Assembly (NCBI RefSeq): GCF_023684405.1
Contig: NZ_JAGSOI010000008.1
Coordinates: 1-64,000 of the forward strand
Direction: 5' to 3'
Origin: Methanococcoides seepicolus
Lineage (GTDB): Archaea; Halobacteriota; Methanosarcinia; Methanosarcinales; Methanosarcinaceae
Length of the DNA stretch: 64,000 bases
Shown here: piece after piece, positions 6,075 through 42,508 of the stretch
Numbering within the stretch: position 1 is the first letter of the stretch
Layout of the letters: each line of letters starts with the position of its first letter
Translations under genes and position numbers: made by a program
The notes under the pieces: model-generated
What the model was told of the DNA's origin: nothing
Seen by the model: only the letters and a program-made list of their open reading frames with translations
Database searches by the model: none

Positions 6075-6518
6075 TTAAGCCTCCTTAAAGCTTGTTTTTG
6101 GTTGTGATTGGTCCTTATCTGCATGCCATCCAGAACTCCTATTGTAGTACTTACGATAACATTCATCGCACCTCCACTCCACACCATAACTATCCACAAT
6201 TGATTGACTTCTAGCCTGACCACCACATGCCACACAAAGAGGAATATGTAGTGAGTTAATTGGATTTAGTTTCTTCAGAGGTGTGCTGACTGCATTGAGA
6301 TCTTGTTTTTTGCCTTGCTCTGTACGATCATTCAATATATCCGTCCGAGAATCACAATTTAACCTGGACGGCATTTCACAAGCTGTTGATATTTGTTTTA
6401 ACTCATCCGTCCAGGTGTACAGGGTATTTTCACAATTGTTTTGTAATACCCTATTATCCACATCATCAACATCCGTCTTTGTTGATTTATCATACAGTTG
6501 TCTTTTCGACATGGACAC
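6075..6518 (-). CDS. Zinc-finger protein or UAG-separated C-terminal extension of the primase
   Basis: 147 aa from a GTG at 6518 (ATG alternative at 6512). The N-terminal ~90 residues are low complexity (K-T-D-V-D-D-V-D-N...). The C-terminus carries a CxxC...CxxC zinc motif (CVACGG and WRCDECYRKY). It lies in the same reading frame as the upstream primase, separated only by a TAG and eight sense codons, and its own ribosome-binding site (AGGTG, 3 nt before the ATG) is poor. It may be a separate gene or, if UAG is decoded as pyrrolysine, the tail of an 885-residue primase. From memory, relatives of this primase in methanogens carry similar Asp/Val-rich tails. Confidence 0.6.
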   Translation of the reverse strand: MSMSKRQLYDKSTKTDVDDVDNRVLQNNCENTLYTWTDELKQISTACEMPSRLNCDSRTDILNDRTEQGKKQDLNAVSTPLKKLNPINSLHIPLCVACGGQARSQSIVDSYGVEWRCDECYRKYYNRSSGWHADKDQSQPKTSFKEA

Positions 6519-6542
6519 CTGGACGAATTGTATATTTGATGA

Positions 6543-8732
6543 CTACTGATCTCGGTTATCTTCGTCCATGTTAACCTCACCATCGTGGACAGATTCCCCT
6601 TTGATTGTAACATTCTCCCAGCACCTTAGTCGATCCCCAGTGGACTGCCTTTTATCAGCATATCCAAGTTTCTTCATTCGTTTACCGAACATGCCCTCAC
6701 TGATTGTTGCAACATCATGTTCTTTACACCATTTGCTGAAATGTCCGTACATAACCATTTTCGGTGTGGGTTCCTCGGAGTAAATCAACCACTCATCAGC
6801 AAATGCTGCAACAGGATCACTTTTGATTATGTATTCACGTTTGACCTCTTCTGTTGATCTGCTGTATGAGAACTGATTGTTCTTCCTCAGTCTCCTTAGT
6901 CCACTAACTGCAATATTGAAGAACCCGGACAACTCCTCGGGAGTGGTTAACTTTCCAATCAGTGACCTGTCCTCCTTTGTGCCTTCAAATTTGTTAGGGA
7001 AGCTAATTAATATCCATCTCCTGAAATATGCATGACCTCCATTAGGCACGGCAGGAAGCTGATTTGCACTGAACATTAATTTAGCAGTATTATTGAAATA
7101 AAATACATCTTTGTACTTCTTCTCCCCACGCAGACGATCTCCACCAGTGATTGACTTAAAGATACTGTTCTGATAAATAGTCGTATTAGCAAGATCTGGA
7201 AACACGTTAACTAGCTTTCCGTATAAGTTTGCTACAGAATAATTATCATTCTCAAGTCTGTGCAATGACTCACCACTTATATTATTTTCACCAACAAAAG
7301 TTGTGATGAGTTCGAGTAACGTACTTTTACCATTTGCACCATCACCATATAGCATAACCGACTTCTGAAAGCTTGTCTCGGTTGTTAACATATATCCTGC
7401 CCATTCCTCAAGTACAGGAATGTCTTCCGGAAGCATTACCTCACCCAAGAACTTAGTGATTTCAGGGCAATCTGCATTAGGACTGTATATTACAGGAATC
7501 TGAACAAGGCAAATAATATCAGGAGCATGAGGTTCAAGTACATCATCCTGAATATTATATATTCCATTCAAGACATTGATACGATTAATATCGTTGTTTA
7601 CAGAATCCCTATCAACGTATGTGGCAATCTTGATGTAATTAATAACCTCATCAATGTGATGTCTCCGAGAATGGTCGCCCAGTTCACTTTGAACAAGATA
7701 TGCTATTAGTTGTTCGCCATTTGGCTTGTATATACCTTCAGCGTACTGATATATTTCACCAGTATCTCGAAACGTGATGAAATGACAGCTATTCATTATG
7801 CTTTCACTTATTTTTTGGACCAGCAGCTTCCCATTATTGGACAAGTATTTGCTCTTACCCAGTGCCTGCTCTTTGTTACCAATATTTTCAAGTGCCTTTC
7901 TTATTGTACGTTGTTTATAATCTGGTCTATCCCACTTCTCACGAAAGAGGCCTGAACGTTTGAATATGCGATCAATCTGATCAAAATCACGTGTGTGCTT
8001 TGCGAGGATATCACATAGAGCTAAATCTGCAGCACTATCATCGTCTCCGTAGTCATCAGTGGCCCCATCAAAAAGCTTCCTGAACTTTTGACTCTTAAAG
8101 GAATGTCTGCAAATTTGTATAAGCTCCTCATCGCCATACTTTAAACAATCTGGTTCGGTGTGATCAAATCCCATCTCCTCTTTGACTTGAGTCTGCACAT
8201 CAATTTTGTCATAGATGGCCTGTAAAGATTCAGATGATGGAGCATTGATCGCCTCCGGTGATCCATTGATGGGCACTCCGGTCATTGTGAAATATCTGTC
8301 CTTATCGTAAATCTCCCGGCAACCTTTACGATTACGCTTGCCTGGAACTGTGCCTCGTATGATTGCATGCGCACCTTTCCCACTGGGGGAAAGTTCAGCG
8401 TATGAGTTCAGGCTTTTTATCTCAGCTAGTATCTCCTGATCAAACTCTCCCGTCTGTGGGTCCCTTACATCATCCCAGTCAATTCCACAGAAAGAATCGG
8501 AATCCGAAAAGACAAAACCTACTCCATCATAGTGGCCATTTTCTGTAAACTTTTTTGCGGCTTCATCAAATGAGCACCACGTCTGAGGGGTTGTAGAACT
8601 TGCTTTGTTGCCCATCTTGGCATCATACGGTATTTTTGTTTGCCTACCGTCTTTTACTTCGGACCTCCACACGACCCACTGACTCAGCTTTTTGAGTTCA
8701 TTGGGAATAGCATCAACATTGAACTTGATCAT
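6543..8732 (-). CDS. Phage/plasmid primase-helicase, D5/P4 type
   Basis: 729 aa to a TAG at 6543-6545. The N-terminal ~190 residues resemble the primase-polymerase-like domain of archaeal element replication proteins (FCGIDWDDV acidic motif, [10 protein letters not shown]). The centre has a D5_N region and an SF3 helicase with Walker [10 protein letters not shown] near residue 455. The C-terminus is a winged-helix-like domain. Such proteins prime and unwind DNA to replicate viruses, plasmids and integrated elements (known). The start overlaps the upstream 57-aa gene by 4 nt. Its stop is the only TAG among the well-defined genes here, and the frame stays open for 155 further codons. Confidence 0.88.
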
Positions 8733-15715: not shown

Positions 15716-16198
15716 ATGACCGATAGGCAGAAATTAATATTTCATATTTTTGTTGCACTTTCCTTATTCTACGCAGCTATTATATTCTATCTTTCAGCAC
15801 AGTCCAGTATTGAGATACCTTCATCTTCACCAATTCCTTTTTATGATCAACTTATTGATTTTGTGATAAACAGTAATAATGCCTATTTGTTGGATATTGC
15901 ATATTTTGTTGCTCATAATTTTGATAAATTTGCACACATGATCCTATATTTTGGATTCGGAATCCTCCTTCACCTTACATTCCGTCATTCCGATAATCTT
16001 ACGCTTCGAAAATATGCTCCTGTCTTTGCTATCTTTATAGGGATAGCTTACGGAATTACGGATGAGCTCCATCAAATGTATGTTCCGGGTAGAACTTCAA
16101 GCTTTGATGATATTGTAGCGGATGGTATAGGTATAGCTCTGGCTCAGATAATTTTCTGGGTAGTTGTCTTCAAAAGTATTTTTTTCAGAAAAAAATGA
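15716..16198 (+). CDS. VanZ family membrane protein
   Basis: 160 aa, four predicted membrane helices. The VanZ core DKFAHMILYFGFGILL and YGITDELHQMYVPGRTSSFDDIVADGIG is clear. AAGGTG precedes the ATG. VanZ proteins are linked to envelope or glycan phenotypes in bacteria; their biochemical role is unknown. It sits between surface-glycan genes and converges on the oxidoreductase operon. Confidence 0.8.
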   Translation: MTDRQKLIFHIFVALSLFYAAIIFYLSAQSSIEIPSSSPIPFYDQLIDFVINSNNAYLLDIAYFVAHNFDKFAHMILYFGFGILLHLTFRHSDNLTLRKYAPVFAIFIGIAYGITDELHQMYVPGRTSSFDDIVADGIGIALAQIIFWVVVFKSIFFRKK

Positions 16199-37118: not shown

Positions 37119-37889
37119 TCACTTTGCCCCTTTTTCTTTCTTATCCTCGATCCTGTCTCGAAGTTCATTTATTGCAAGGGTCGGTGCGACCTTTTTCGGA
37201 CAAACAGCAACACATTTGTACACGGTATCACAACCCCACACTCCTGATTCCGAATCAACTATGGCAAGGCGTTCCTGCTTACTTTCCTCGTTCTCCCTTG
37301 GGTCAAGATAGAACCTCCATGCTTTTGCGAGTGCAGCAGGCCCATAATACTGTTTATCCTTAGCTGCAACGGGACATGAACCATGGCAGAGTGCACATAG
37401 GATACAATTGGTATATTGCTCGATCTTTACCTGAGTATCCCTGTCCATAAGATTCTCTTTTTCCGGTACATTTTCCTTCATCTCAAGCCAAGGCTTTATA
37501 TCTTCAACCAGTGAATAGAAAGGTACCATATCGACCACAAGGTCTCTTATCACTCTCAGGTTAGGCAATGGTTCTATCAGTATGACGTTATTGTCTATCT
37601 CCGTCTTTTTGTTAGTGATAAGAACTTCCAGATTCCCTTCATTTGTTGGCTCCTTTCTCATCTCAGAGATCTGCATTTTACAGGCAAGCCTTGGAATACG
37701 ATTGATCAGCATACTGCAGCTACCACAGACAGCACCCCTGCATGCATATCGGAATGTCAGACTTGTATCAAGCTTTTCCTGTGCGTAGAACAATGCTTCA
37801 AGAACGGTCATTCCGGGCCTGTCCTCAACTTCATATTCCTGATACCAGACATTTTCCTCTTCCTGTCTCTTGACCTTGAGCGTTATCAT
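37119..37889 (-). CDS. Fumarate reductase/succinate dehydrogenase iron-sulfur subunit
   Basis: 256 aa. The N-terminal ferredoxin domain has the [2Fe-2S] Cys set CRGAVCGSC plus ACKM. The C-terminal domain has CILCALCHGSCPVA and GCDTVYKCVAVCPKKVAP for [4Fe-4S] and [3Fe-4S]/[4Fe-4S] clusters. It lacks the HdrB-like C-terminal domain of TfrB from hydrogenotrophic methanogens and no membrane anchor genes follow. The start overlaps the sdhA stop. The physiological electron donor is therefore open. Confidence 0.9.
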   Translation of the reverse strand: MITLKVKRQEEENVWYQEYEVEDRPGMTVLEALFYAQEKLDTSLTFRYACRGAVCGSCSMLINRIPRLACKMQISEMRKEPTNEGNLEVLITNKKTEIDNNVILIEPLPNLRVIRDLVVDMVPFYSLVEDIKPWLEMKENVPEKENLMDRDTQVKIEQYTNCILCALCHGSCPVAAKDKQYYGPAALAKAWRFYLDPRENEESKQERLAIVDSESGVWGCDTVYKCVAVCPKKVAPTLAINELRDRIEDKKEKGAK

Positions 37890-39565
37890 CAGTACTGCCT
37901 CCTTTGTGGCTGGAACGTTGTAATGGTGACATCCTTATACTCTAACCTTGGTCCTTCCGGTGTAAAATAAGCAAGAGTGTGCTTCATCCAGTTCGCATCA
38001 TCCCTTTCCAGATGATCCGTTCTGTAATGTGCTCCTCTGCTTTCCTCACGCACCAATGCACCTAGCGCGATTGTGTGGGCAAGGTCCAGCATCCCCTTAA
38101 GTTCGATGGCATTGATAAGTTCAAGATTGAACTGCTTCGACAATGTCCTTACTTTCAATGATCTTGCCTGCACCTCCAGTTCCTTTATCTTATCAACTGC
38201 CTTTTCAAGTCTTTCACGCTCTCGGAAAACTCCCACGTTCTCCTGCATGTTCTTCCTGAGGCTATCCTTTATATACGCATAACTTTCCCCACTGTCTCCC
38301 ATAAGCTCTGAGATGTTCTTGTTCTCACTTTCAAGGGCATCTTCAAGTATCTCATCATTTGGATCCTCAAAAGTACTGATATAGTTCGCAGCATGCACTC
38401 CGGCCCTTCTTCCGAATACTACTGTATCAAGAAGGGAATTACCTCCGAGGCGATTTGCACCATGGACGCTTATGCAGGCACATTCACCGACAGCATAAAG
38501 TCCATTTGCGGGAGTGCATCCATCTTTATCGGAACTCACGCCTCCCATTGAATAATGTTGTCCCGGTTGCACTGGAATGGGCTTTTCAACAGGGTCGATA
38601 CCGGCAAAATCGATACTTATCTGGCGAATTCCGGGTAAACGTTCCTCGATCAGCTTTTTCCCAAGGTGTGTAATGTCAAGCTCTACATATCCCTCGGGGA
38701 ATCCTCTCCCCTCATCTATCTCCTGCTGGATCGACCTTGCAACGATATCCCTTGGGGCTAATTCCATGGAGCTTTCGGCATATCTTTTCATGAACCTTTC
38801 ATGGTCCTTATTATAAAGGTAGCCACCTTCACCCCTTGCGCCTTCTGTTATCAATATATTCGTACCCAGCAGTGTTGTGGGATGGAACTGTACGAATTCC
38901 ATGTCCTGCAATGGAATTCCCGCTCGATACGCAAGACTAATACCATGCCCCTTGTTGATCATCGCATTTGTCGAACGCTTATATATACGTCCGTAACCGC
39001 CGGTTGCCAGTACAGTTGCCTTTGCCTTGAATATCTCCAGTTTTGAATCGAACAGGTTTATGGCTATGGCTCCGATGCATCTGTTATCATCGATGACCAG
39101 TCGCGTTACAAGCCATTCCTTGTAAACTGTTATGTTCCTTTTTGTTACCTGTTCATGAAGGCTATGTAGCAGGTTATGTCCTGTCCTGTCCCCTGCATAG
39201 CACGTTCTGGGAAATCCAGCACCTCCAAATGGGCGTTGTGCAATTGTACCATCTTCTTTCCTTGAAAAATTGGTTCCCCAATGTTCCATCTCAAGGACCC
39301 TGTCAGGTGCTTCCTTTGTAAGTATTTCCACAGTATCCTGGTCTGCGAGATAATCACTTCCCTTTATGGTGTCGAAAGCATGGGATTCCCAGCCATCGTC
39401 CTTTCCAAGCGATGCATTGATACCACCTTGTGCAGCACCTGAATGGCTGCGTATGGGGGGTACTTTTGAAATAATTGCAACATCCACGCCCTTGTCGTGA
39501 AGTTCGATAGCAGCCCGGAGTCCTGAAAGTCCTCCTCCGATAACAATTATATCGTGTGATATCAT
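37889..39565 (-). CDS. Fumarate reductase/succinate dehydrogenase flavoprotein subunit
   Basis: 558 aa. GGGLSGLRAAIEL binds FAD; HSGAAQGGINAS holds the covalent-flavin His of the family; MEFVQFHPT, TEGARGEGGYL and HGANRLGGNSLLDTVVFGR are active-site and FAD motifs. It interconverts fumarate and succinate with the adjacent FeS subunit. The ATG overlaps the fumC TGA (ATGA), so it is translationally coupled to fumC. Position after fumarase suggests a reductive malate-fumarate-succinate branch. TfrA-type function is possible. Confidence 0.9.
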   Translation of the reverse strand: MISHDIIVIGGGLSGLRAAIELHDKGVDVAIISKVPPIRSHSGAAQGGINASLGKDDGWESHAFDTIKGSDYLADQDTVEILTKEAPDRVLEMEHWGTNFSRKEDGTIAQRPFGGAGFPRTCYAGDRTGHNLLHSLHEQVTKRNITVYKEWLVTRLVIDDNRCIGAIAINLFDSKLEIFKAKATVLATGGYGRIYKRSTNAMINKGHGISLAYRAGIPLQDMEFVQFHPTTLLGTNILITEGARGEGGYLYNKDHERFMKRYAESSMELAPRDIVARSIQQEIDEGRGFPEGYVELDITHLGKKLIEERLPGIRQISIDFAGIDPVEKPIPVQPGQHYSMGGVSSDKDGCTPANGLYAVGECACISVHGANRLGGNSLLDTVVFGRRAGVHAANYISTFEDPNDEILEDALESENKNISELMGDSGESYAYIKDSLRKNMQENVGVFRERERLEKAVDKIKELEVQARSLKVRTLSKQFNLELINAIELKGMLDLAHTIALGALVREESRGAHYRTDHLERDDANWMKHTLAYFTPEGPRLEYKDVTITTFQPQRRQY

Positions 39566-40962
39566 TGTTTCACCCCGGTCATCTTCAATGGGTCTAGCAG
39601 CTCTTCTGCATCCTTTTCATCCATTATTCTCATATCTTTTACAGTTTCGATTATGGTTTTACCCCCATCGTGTGCAATATGGGCTATCTTTGCAGCTTCC
39701 TCGTAACCTATCCTTGTCGCAAGTATGGTTACAAGAGCAAGGCTTTGTTTTGACAGTTCTTCACACCTATCTCTGTTCACAGTAATTCCCCGAAGGCAGC
39801 GTTCTGTAAAAGAAGTGGCAGCTCCTGTGAGTATCTCTATGGAATTGAGGAGGTCGTATGCCAGCAGGGGTGTGAACACGTTCAGTTCGAACTGGCCACC
39901 CTGAGCTGCCATCATTATGGCGGAATCATTGCCTATTATCTGGAAGCATGCCATGTTCAACATCTCCGCCATTACCGGGTTGACCTTTCCGGGCATGATG
40001 GAGGAGCCGGGTTGTACTGCAGGTAAATTTATCTCTCCGATCCCTGTTCTGGGTCCGCTTGAAAGAAGCCGGAGGTCGTTTGTTATCTTTATCAGGCTGA
40101 CCGCAATGCTGCGCAGGGAAGCTGATGCTCCCAGAATAGCTTCTGCTGCCTGGGTTGCTTCAAAAGGATTTCCTGCAATGACAAAATCCTGTCCTGTGAT
40201 CGCTCTGACCTCTCGAATAGCGATATTGCTGAAATTCTCAGGTATATTCAGTCCAGTACCGACAGCCGTGCCCCCCATGTTCAATTCCTAAAGGCCTACG
40301 ACAGATCTTTCCAGGCGTTTTATCCCAAGTTCCAGCATACGTGCATATCCAGAGTATTCCTGCCCCAGTGTCACAGGGACTGCATCTTGAAGATGTGTTC
40401 TGCCGGGTTTGACAATATCCATGAACTCAGCAGATTTTTCCGAAAAGATCATCAGCATATCAACAAGTGCAGGCATGAGTTCTGCGTTCATCGTCTCAAC
40501 GGCTGCGATATGTATTGCAGTATGTGTGGTATCATTGGATGACTGTGACATGTTCACATGGTCATTAGGGTGAATGATGTCATATCGTCCCTTCTCATAT
40601 CCCCTTATTTCAAGGGCCCGATTTGTAATGACCTCGTTCGCGTTCATGTTCTGTGAGGTTCCGGCTCCTGACTGGAAAACATCCACAACGAACTGGTCAT
40701 CGAACTTTCCTTCTCGTACTTCGGAAGCTGCTGATATTATTGCTTTAGCTATCTCCGGCTCAAGTTTACCGGCTTCAAGATTGGCACTTGCTGAAGCCAG
40801 TTTGATGGCTGCCTGTGCCCTGATAAAAGAAGGCGGAAGCCTCTGTCTGCTTACTCTGAAATTGTTAATTGCCCGTACGGTCTGAGGTCCATAATATGCG
40901 TCCTCAGGGACCTCAATTTCCCCAAAAGTGTCTTTTTCTAATCGGATATGACCCCCTCCCAC
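39562..40962 (-). CDS. fumC: Class II fumarate hydratase with an in-frame UAG codon
   Basis: Read as one frame from the GTG at 40962 this gives 466 residues, the normal FumC length, but codon 225 (40288-40290) is TAG. Before it: SGAGTSQNMNANEVI, HPNDHVNMSQSSND and GRTHLQDAVPVTLGQE. After it, in the same frame: MGGTAVGTGLN, PGSSIMPGKVNPV (family signature) and FELNVF, which favour fumarase over aspartase. The local sequence is V-G-L-UAG-E-L-N-M-G-G, where fumarases commonly have L-Y-E-L-x-x-G-G, so UAG replaces a tyrosine. No frame change or second lesion is seen, and the gene's end is coupled to sdhA. Either UAG is decoded (pyrrolysine) or this is a fresh nonsense mutation. It catalyses fumarate/malate interconversion. 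Confidence 0.8.
40288..40290 (-). other. In-frame UAG codon in fumC (candidate pyrrolysine site)
   Basis: The single TAG interrupts an otherwise intact 466-codon fumC. Both flanks match the family without gap. TAG is almost unused as a stop elsewhere in the window. The assignment to pyrrolysine is inference. Confidence 0.55.
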
Positions 40963-40982: not shown

Positions 40983-42473
40983 TTAGACGTGTTCTATTTC
41001 GGTATGATCCGATATCTCCGAATTTGTCGTACAAAGGTCGTTTATACTAAGTTTATGAACATCATCATTTCCTGTCAGTCTTGCGAATGCTTCAAGTTCC
41101 TTTGTAGAGACCTTCAGGAAATTTTCCAGTTTTTTCGCAGAAATATCAATCTTCAGCCTTGAACGAAGTTCCGGGTCCTGCGTTGTTACTCCCACCGGAC
41201 ATTTTCCCGTATCACACAACCGATATTGCTGGCATGCACATGCCATAAGTGCGGCTGTGCCAATTGCTATAGCATCTGCTCCCAATGCAAGGGCCTTTGC
41301 ATAATCGGGTGAGGTCCTCAAACCGCCGGTTATGATCAATGAGATATCCTCTATGCCTTTCTCATCCAGATATCTTCTTGCACGCCAGAGTGCGAAAATA
41401 GTGGGAATGGATGTGGAGTTCTTAACAAACTTCGATGCTGCTGCAGTAGCTCCCGGCCTGCCGTCAATAGTGATGAAATCGGGCTTTGCATAAGTAGCAA
41501 CTTCAAGGTCAGCTTCAATGTTCCCGGCTGCGATCTTAATTCCGATCGGTTTGCCGCCGGAAGTTTCCCTGAGCCATTCCACTTTCTTCTTTAGATCATC
41601 CTTGTTCCTGATATCATCAAAGTTAGCGGGGCTTACAATGTCAGTACCTTCGGGAAAGCCTCTGATGTCTGCCAGTTCGGAAGTTACTTTTTCAGCAGGC
41701 AGATGCCCTCCCATTCCAGGTTTGGCAGATTGTCCTATCTTTATTTCGATAGCATCTACTTTCTTAAGGTTTTCTTCCGTCACACTGTATCTGTTCGGAA
41801 CGTACTCGAAAATATACTTGTAGGCATTTTCCATACTCTCTTTCAGGATCCCGCCTTCTCCTGAGCACATTGCTGTCTTTACAGCCGCGCTTCCCTTTGA
41901 AAGTGCCTGTTTCACTTCTTTTGAGAGAGCACCGTAGGACATATGTGTGATGAACACAGGTGTTTCAATGACAAGAGGATATTTCGCATTTGGTCCGATA
42001 GTGGTAGTGGTGTTTACTGGCACATCTTCGTTCAGAGGCATTTTGGCAAGTTGTGCACCTTTTATGAGTATATCATTCCAGGCGATCACATTCTGCTTTG
42101 TTCTCATCGGTTCAATGATCGATTCGCCGGTAATTGATATCTTGTGGATATCCTCCATGAATGTCTCGAACTCATCCTTTGTTCGCCTCCATTCTCCAAG
42201 ATAGCTTTTAACATCCACCTCCTCAAGGGCAGAAACAGTTACTTTACTCTTGGTGCCACATTTTGGACATGTGACGATCTCTTTGGATGTTACATGTTCA
42301 ACTTCTTTCTTTTCGGTTGGCATTTGGTGGTTCTTATCAGCACCACAAATCGGACATCTCCAGTCATCAGGAAAATCTTCCGGTTTGGTTCCCGGTCTCA
42401 CTTCTGTGTCCGAGTCCCCTCTTGTATCATCGTACTCAAAGACATTACAGACATTGCAGCGGTATTCCGTCAT
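40983..42473 (-). CDS. Rubredoxin domain fused to archaeal glutamate synthase-like FMN enzyme
   Basis: 496 aa from the ATG at 42473 with GAAGGTG upstream. Residues 1-48 are a rubredoxin (C6xxC9 ... C40PIC43); a CPKCG zinc-like motif follows near residue 68. The rest is the GltB central/FMN barrel (SYGALSKEVKQAL, GQSAKPGMGGHLP, IDGRPGATAAA, ITGGLRTSPDYAKALALGAD) with CACQQYRLCDTGKCPVG for a [3Fe-4S]/[4Fe-4S] cluster. It lacks the glutaminase domain. Archaeal versions may make glutamate or oxidise/reduce other substrates. The rubredoxin probably delivers electrons. Confidence 0.88.
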   Translation of the reverse strand: MTEYRCNVCNVFEYDDTRGDSDTEVRPGTKPEDFPDDWRCPICGADKNHQMPTEKKEVEHVTSKEIVTCPKCGTKSKVTVSALEEVDVKSYLGEWRRTKDEFETFMEDIHKISITGESIIEPMRTKQNVIAWNDILIKGAQLAKMPLNEDVPVNTTTTIGPNAKYPLVIETPVFITHMSYGALSKEVKQALSKGSAAVKTAMCSGEGGILKESMENAYKYIFEYVPNRYSVTEENLKKVDAIEIKIGQSAKPGMGGHLPAEKVTSELADIRGFPEGTDIVSPANFDDIRNKDDLKKKVEWLRETSGGKPIGIKIAAGNIEADLEVATYAKPDFITIDGRPGATAAASKFVKNSTSIPTIFALWRARRYLDEKGIEDISLIITGGLRTSPDYAKALALGADAIAIGTAALMACACQQYRLCDTGKCPVGVTTQDPELRSRLKIDISAKKLENFLKVSTKELEAFARLTGNDDVHKLSINDLCTTNSEISDHTEIEHV

Positions 42474-42508
42474 TTTTACGGCACCTTCTTTCAATTATCT
42501 TAAAGCTA

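Follow-up and report, generated by a model that had tools for sequence, protein, structure and literature searches.

A conserved in-frame UAG in a fumC-like gene of Methanococcoides is probably read as pyrrolysine

Archaea with a pyrrolysine (Pyl) code reportedly translate all or nearly all TAG codons as pyrrolysine, as Kivenson et al. are said to have described in Science in 2025, and a Methanococcoides is said to be among the organisms covered. Methanococcoides seepicolus resembles such archaea: TAG is rare, in-frame TAGs are scattered over ordinary genes, and pyl genes are present. The methylamine methyltransferases MtmB, MtbB and MttB have a single conserved UAG, and their pyrrolysine is catalytic and invariant in position. 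In Thg1 of Methanosarcina acetivorans an amber codon is translated as a pyrrolysine that is dispensable for activity (PMC2933860), and the citrate synthase gene of Methanohalophilus mahii contains an in-frame amber codon for which its authors propose pyrrolysine (PMC3017947). Here we describe a fumC-like gene that shares a feature with each: a single conserved UAG with the methyltransferases, an in-frame amber codon in a non-methyltransferase protein with Thg1, and a lone UAG in a central-carbon enzyme with the citrate synthase. However, pyrrolysine in Thg1 was physically observed, in a single species, whereas that of FumC is deduced from sequence and genus-wide; the M. mahii codon is known from one genome, whereas both halves of the fumC genes are under selection across the genus; and the FumC position, unlike that in the methyltransferases, is variable outside the genus and was lost in two species. 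What this work adds is evidence that the codon of a central enzyme is conserved genus-wide, a test of selection on the gene of that enzyme, and an apparent AUC start.

The gene lies in the window, by which we mean the whole stretch of 64,000 nucleotides that was analysed (positions 1 to 64,000 of contig NZ_JAGSOI010000008.1). The features of the locus are:

39562..40962, minus strand: fumC-like class II fumarase/aspartase gene (Pfam match across the TAG; AlphaFold model)
40288..40290, minus strand: in-frame TAG of fumC (codon 225 from GTG, 220 from AUC)
37889..39565, minus strand: sdhA/frdA flavoprotein subunit (TIGR01812, 780.7 bits), joined to the fumC end by an ATGA overlap
37119..37889, minus strand: sdhB/frdB iron-sulfur subunit (TIGR00384, 217.6 bits)
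40983..42494, minus strand: glutamate-synthase-like gene upstream of fumC, its stop about 36 bases before the fumC ATC

With the TAG read as pyrrolysine, fumC spans 461 codons from an AUC start (39562-40947) or 466 from the GTG at 40960-40962 (39562-40962). From an in-frame TAG upstream to the TGA that ends the gene (39562-39564), the sole intervening stop is the TAG at 40288-40290. The sequence-only reading had described the frame as interrupted by one TAG only, and this was confirmed: Lyase_1 (PF00206) matches in a single stretch across the codon (residues 38-368, 329 bits) and is followed by FumaraseC_C. The ATGA overlap between the end of fumC and sdhA, also described there, is real (39565..39562), and it is retained in the Methanococcoides comparison. 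An AlphaFold model of the read-through protein, in which lysine stood in for pyrrolysine, had a pLDDT of 89.7 and a TM-score of 0.96 to FumC 7c18 (about 0.96 on FumC and aspartase structures). An Rfam search of the window between 38 and 43 kb returned no matches, and no PYLIS-like structure was found 3′ of the TAG (z-scores -0.4 to 1.0); such elements are not needed for pyrrolysine insertion.

The Lyase_1 fold and the motifs GRTHLQD, SQS(S/T)ND and GSSIMPGKVNP place the product in the fumarase/aspartase superfamily. Among NCBIfam models it cleared only the threshold of PRK12273 (aspartate ammonia-lyase subfamily), lying below the equivalog cut-offs of both fumC_II (565.7 bits vs 664.75) and aspA. 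Its SQSSND motif is that of the aligned fumarases; aspartase has SQSTND. Because of this motif and the adjoining sdhAB genes, fumarase is the likelier activity. A gene adjoining the fumarate reductase genes of M. mahii is likewise annotated as fumarase (PMC3017947).

The start of the gene is unusual, and three further features bear on it:

40945..40947, minus strand: ATC, the probable AUC initiation codon, where the Methanolobus gene has its ATG
40951..40960, minus strand: Shine-Dalgarno-like GGGAGGGGGT, immediately 5′ of the ATC
40960..40962, minus strand: alternative GTG start, five codons upstream, found only in the clade of the window species (ATG in M. burtonii)

Methanolobus genes begin with a Shine-Dalgarno sequence followed by ATG-AGA-CTT-GAA, and all Methanococcoides genes have ATC-CGN-TNA-GAR after a G-rich Shine-Dalgarno, the ATC taking the position of that ATG in 10/10 loci. 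The Shine-Dalgarno-like element before the ATC is GGGAGGGGGT or GGGGGGT across the genus (L202-L209). In six Methanococcoides species no upstream ATG, GTG or TTG in any frame could yield full-length FumC, and in four of these six species without a canonical start an in-frame TAA bounds the gene upstream. Alternatively, translation could begin at an in-frame GTG ten codons downstream, which is found in the six species; this would cost FumC its first strand. The nine codons after the ATC vary mostly synonymously within the genus, and the first strands of the model are built from them; AUC initiation of fumC in Methanococcoides is therefore likely.

As the sequence-only reading had proposed, fumC was aligned with its close relatives. 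Among 11 Methanococcoides genomes there were nine full-length fumC genes, and a codon-level comparison placed TAG at the identical position in seven of the nine. Standard annotation would split fumC or label it a pseudogene in most species of the genus. The two genes without TAG come from the species most closely related to that of the window and carry CAG (96% identical) and TGG (92%), each a single transition from TAG; neither codon was seen at this site among the other Methanosarcinaceae examined. A tree of the flanking genes grouped the window species (G000) with these two (G022 and G023), its sisters, with a support of 0.999. Given this branching, the simplest history would be that TAG was gained once, at the genus root, and then lost twice, each time by a single transition. 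An assembly or sequencing error is ruled out, the codon being common to seven genomes.

To compare selection on the two sides of the TAG, dN/dS was calculated for all 21 pairs of the seven TAG carriers (pairwise dS up to about 2). Median values were 0.073 on the 5′ side of the TAG, 0.070 on the 3′ side and 0.060 for sdhA. Since an untranslated distal half would have decayed, and since dN/dS is equally low on both sides, the full-length protein appears to be made and selected. Fourfold-degenerate sites were invariant across all seven TAG species at a frequency of 0.193 (19%), from which the chance of a neutral codon remaining unchanged in all seven carriers is about 0.7% (0.193 cubed); amino acids that vary in the outgroups were invariant in 49%. 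The fumC TAG behaves like an ordinary constrained codon in these comparisons, which does not mean that pyrrolysine itself is favoured. These results bear on the proposal that fumC is a pseudogene, or that its TAG reflects a recent nonsense mutation or an assembly error. The in-frame stop, the missing canonical start in several species, the deleted remnant in M. burtonii and the availability of a class I fumarase would all fit it, but seven genomes share the codon at a dN/dS of about 0.07 on each side, the conserved region of all nine genes is free of further stops and of frameshifts, and the operon overlap has been kept. For the genus as a whole the comparative data refute a pseudogene or recent lesion, and we consider the proposal scarcely credible. 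The specific suggestion of a recent Tyr-to-stop mutation fails likewise: the TAG dates to the genus root, its column is Leu/Lys-like, and purifying selection is equally strong on both halves.

A search for pylT, S, B, C and D, which the sequence-only reading had named as a check, found tRNA-Pyl(CUA) followed by adjacent pylS, pylB, pylC and pylD on contig C1 of the window's genome (L115 10883-15256), as expected of an organism that decodes UAG as pyrrolysine. The release factor aRF1 is present, as in other Methanosarcinaceae. In a 381-kb sample of this genome (about 14% of the assembly), TAG ends 6/259 coding-like ORFs (2.3%), and it is similarly rare, at about 2% of ORF ends, in the sampled Methanococcoides DNA. 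At least 60 open codons follow four of the six TAGs in the genome sample; in the genus sample this holds for 6/9 TAGs versus 19/184 TAA or TGA codons (Fisher p 1.7e-4). The few TAGs sampled from one Methanolobus and one Methanosarcina were terminator-like, with at most 37 codons after each. UAG behaves as a sense codon, read as pyrrolysine, in this Methanococcoides according to these patterns, which offer comparative evidence, independent of proteomics, that it is an ordinary sense codon in the genus beyond methylamine metabolism.

The six TAGs of the genome sample lie in fumC, hypF, a histidine kinase gene, a primase gene, a gene with a TAA close by, and pylB. In hypF (L125:13920-16196, minus strand; TAG at 15885, with 103 codons before and 654 after) the frame crosses the TAG from the acylphosphatase into the zinc fingers, the codon preceding the first of these. 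A second hypF copy, in G022 (C61), has a TAG too; other Methanococcoides hypF genes have none. The PAS histidine kinase gene (L129:312-2261) has its TAG at codon 563, within HATPase_c, a PAS kinase gene of G020 has one within PAS_3, and a HerA-like ATPase gene has one at codon 350 in G017 (presumed M. burtonii; L142:7748-9034) and also in G016, so that HATPase, PAS_3 and HerA_C domains each span a TAG in Methanococcoides. In the window's genome the HerA-like gene exists as fragments only (C75). The TAGs of hypF and the HerA-like gene are confined to one or a few species, whereas that of fumC is genus-wide.

Elsewhere in the window, a phage/plasmid-type primase gene (P4 family, D5_N, NrS-1-like; 729 codons; 6078-8732, minus strand) has a TAG at 6543-6545, followed by 155 open codons that end in the Cys-rich CVACGG..CDECYRKYY and whose composition is not clearly coding. 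This TAG, within a mobile element, may be another UAG sense codon of the window.

UAG may also terminate translation at some places in Methanococcoides. The TAG of pylB (L115:13379-13381) stands directly before the pylC ATG, with 42 open codons after it, and of the sampled TAGs it looks most like a true stop; the pylB TAG of relatives has been reported as a real stop (PMC2933860). A true stop here, in a gene for pyrrolysine biosynthesis, would permit feedback. Besides pylB, two other TAGs are followed by a second stop at once or by a TAA two codons on.

Termination at the fumC UAG, with a restart at the ATG 9 bases downstream (AGGA-ATTGAAC-ATG) and assembly of the two halves into a two-piece fumarase, was also considered. 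The window species does have a Shine-Dalgarno-like AGGA and an in-frame ATG after the TAG, and a split enzyme would equally demand conservation of both halves. However, relatives whose codon here is CAG, TGG, CTG or GAA have the ELNMGG segment, including the ATG, just as well; because the ATG also accompanies sense codons, it is not a restart signal. Enzymes with CAG or TGG are ordinary fused proteins, and other TAGs fall within single domains that continue beyond them (HATPase, PAS, HerA) and that are implausible as split proteins. We therefore judge such re-initiation very unlikely.

In the model, the residue encoded by the TAG sits between the helix 194-219, which it directly follows, and the conserved ELNMGGTAVGTG loop; it is not part of any catalytic motif. 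The site had been described as a tyrosine position, which does not hold for this lineage: among 81 homologues the column is mostly Leu (33) or Lys (23), with four Ala, four Arg and a single Tyr. Human fumarase and Bacillus aspartase have tyrosine there in the alignment, and the codons in other genera specify Leu, Lys, Glu, Ala or Gly. Pyrrolysine, a lysine derivative, is plausibly tolerated at this column, and its role in FumC is probably not catalytic. The residues found at this site could also be taken to suggest that a tRNA carrying one of the standard amino acids (Gln, Lys, Trp or Tyr) reads the codon in place of tRNA-Pyl, in view of the Gln and Trp codons in the sister species and Lys and Leu in relatives. 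This is highly improbable in a genome that holds the cognate tRNA-Pyl(CUA), its synthetase and the biosynthesis genes.

Taken together, the data make it very probable that the fumC UAG is read as a pyrrolysine sense codon and that the product is a full-length class II fumarase with one, incidental, pyrrolysine. The earlier suggestion of an incidental pyrrolysine is most likely right, given tRNA-Pyl with pylSBCD and selection on both halves. tRNA-Pyl(CUA), charged by PylRS, would decode the UAG to give this protein. In the genus ancestor, the TAG probably arose by a one-base change (e.g. from AAG Lys or GAG Glu), and it would have persisted since UAG is normally translated in Methanococcoides, reverting to CAG and TGG in two species. 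We infer the identity of the inserted residue, the efficiency of its insertion, and the neutrality or near-neutrality of pyrrolysine in FumC. The gene offers a clean natural test site for pyrrolysine incorporation outside the methyltransferases, with the Gln and Trp sister species as controls.

It had further been suggested that pyrrolysine supply could set the level of fumarase. In a related form of this idea, the UAG would itself be selected: a fumarase dependent on Pyl-tRNA, perhaps with an inefficient AUC start, would tie the reductive TCA branch to the pyrrolysine state of the cell, and fumC-sdhAB output would then depend on Pyl-tRNA and hence on methylamine metabolism. We regard such selection as doubtful. 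In the window's genome both subunits of a class I fumarase, alpha and beta, are encoded without any stop, and the alpha subunit was found in 11/11 Methanococcoides genomes; this intact enzyme speaks against regulation of total fumarase by such a switch. In addition, a deletion in G017, presumed to be M. burtonii, joins fumC codon 109 to sdhB codon 31 (L116:5951-6934), removing most of fumC and all of sdhA. Because the class I fumarase is intact and M. burtonii has lost most of fumC and all of sdhA, total fumarase does not depend on fumC, and control of its level by pyrrolysine supply is not supported. M. burtonii, which lacks an intact fumC, is also reportedly the strain with proteomics in the Pyl-code work. 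The sdhB gene of G017 is, moreover, frameshifted near codon 219.
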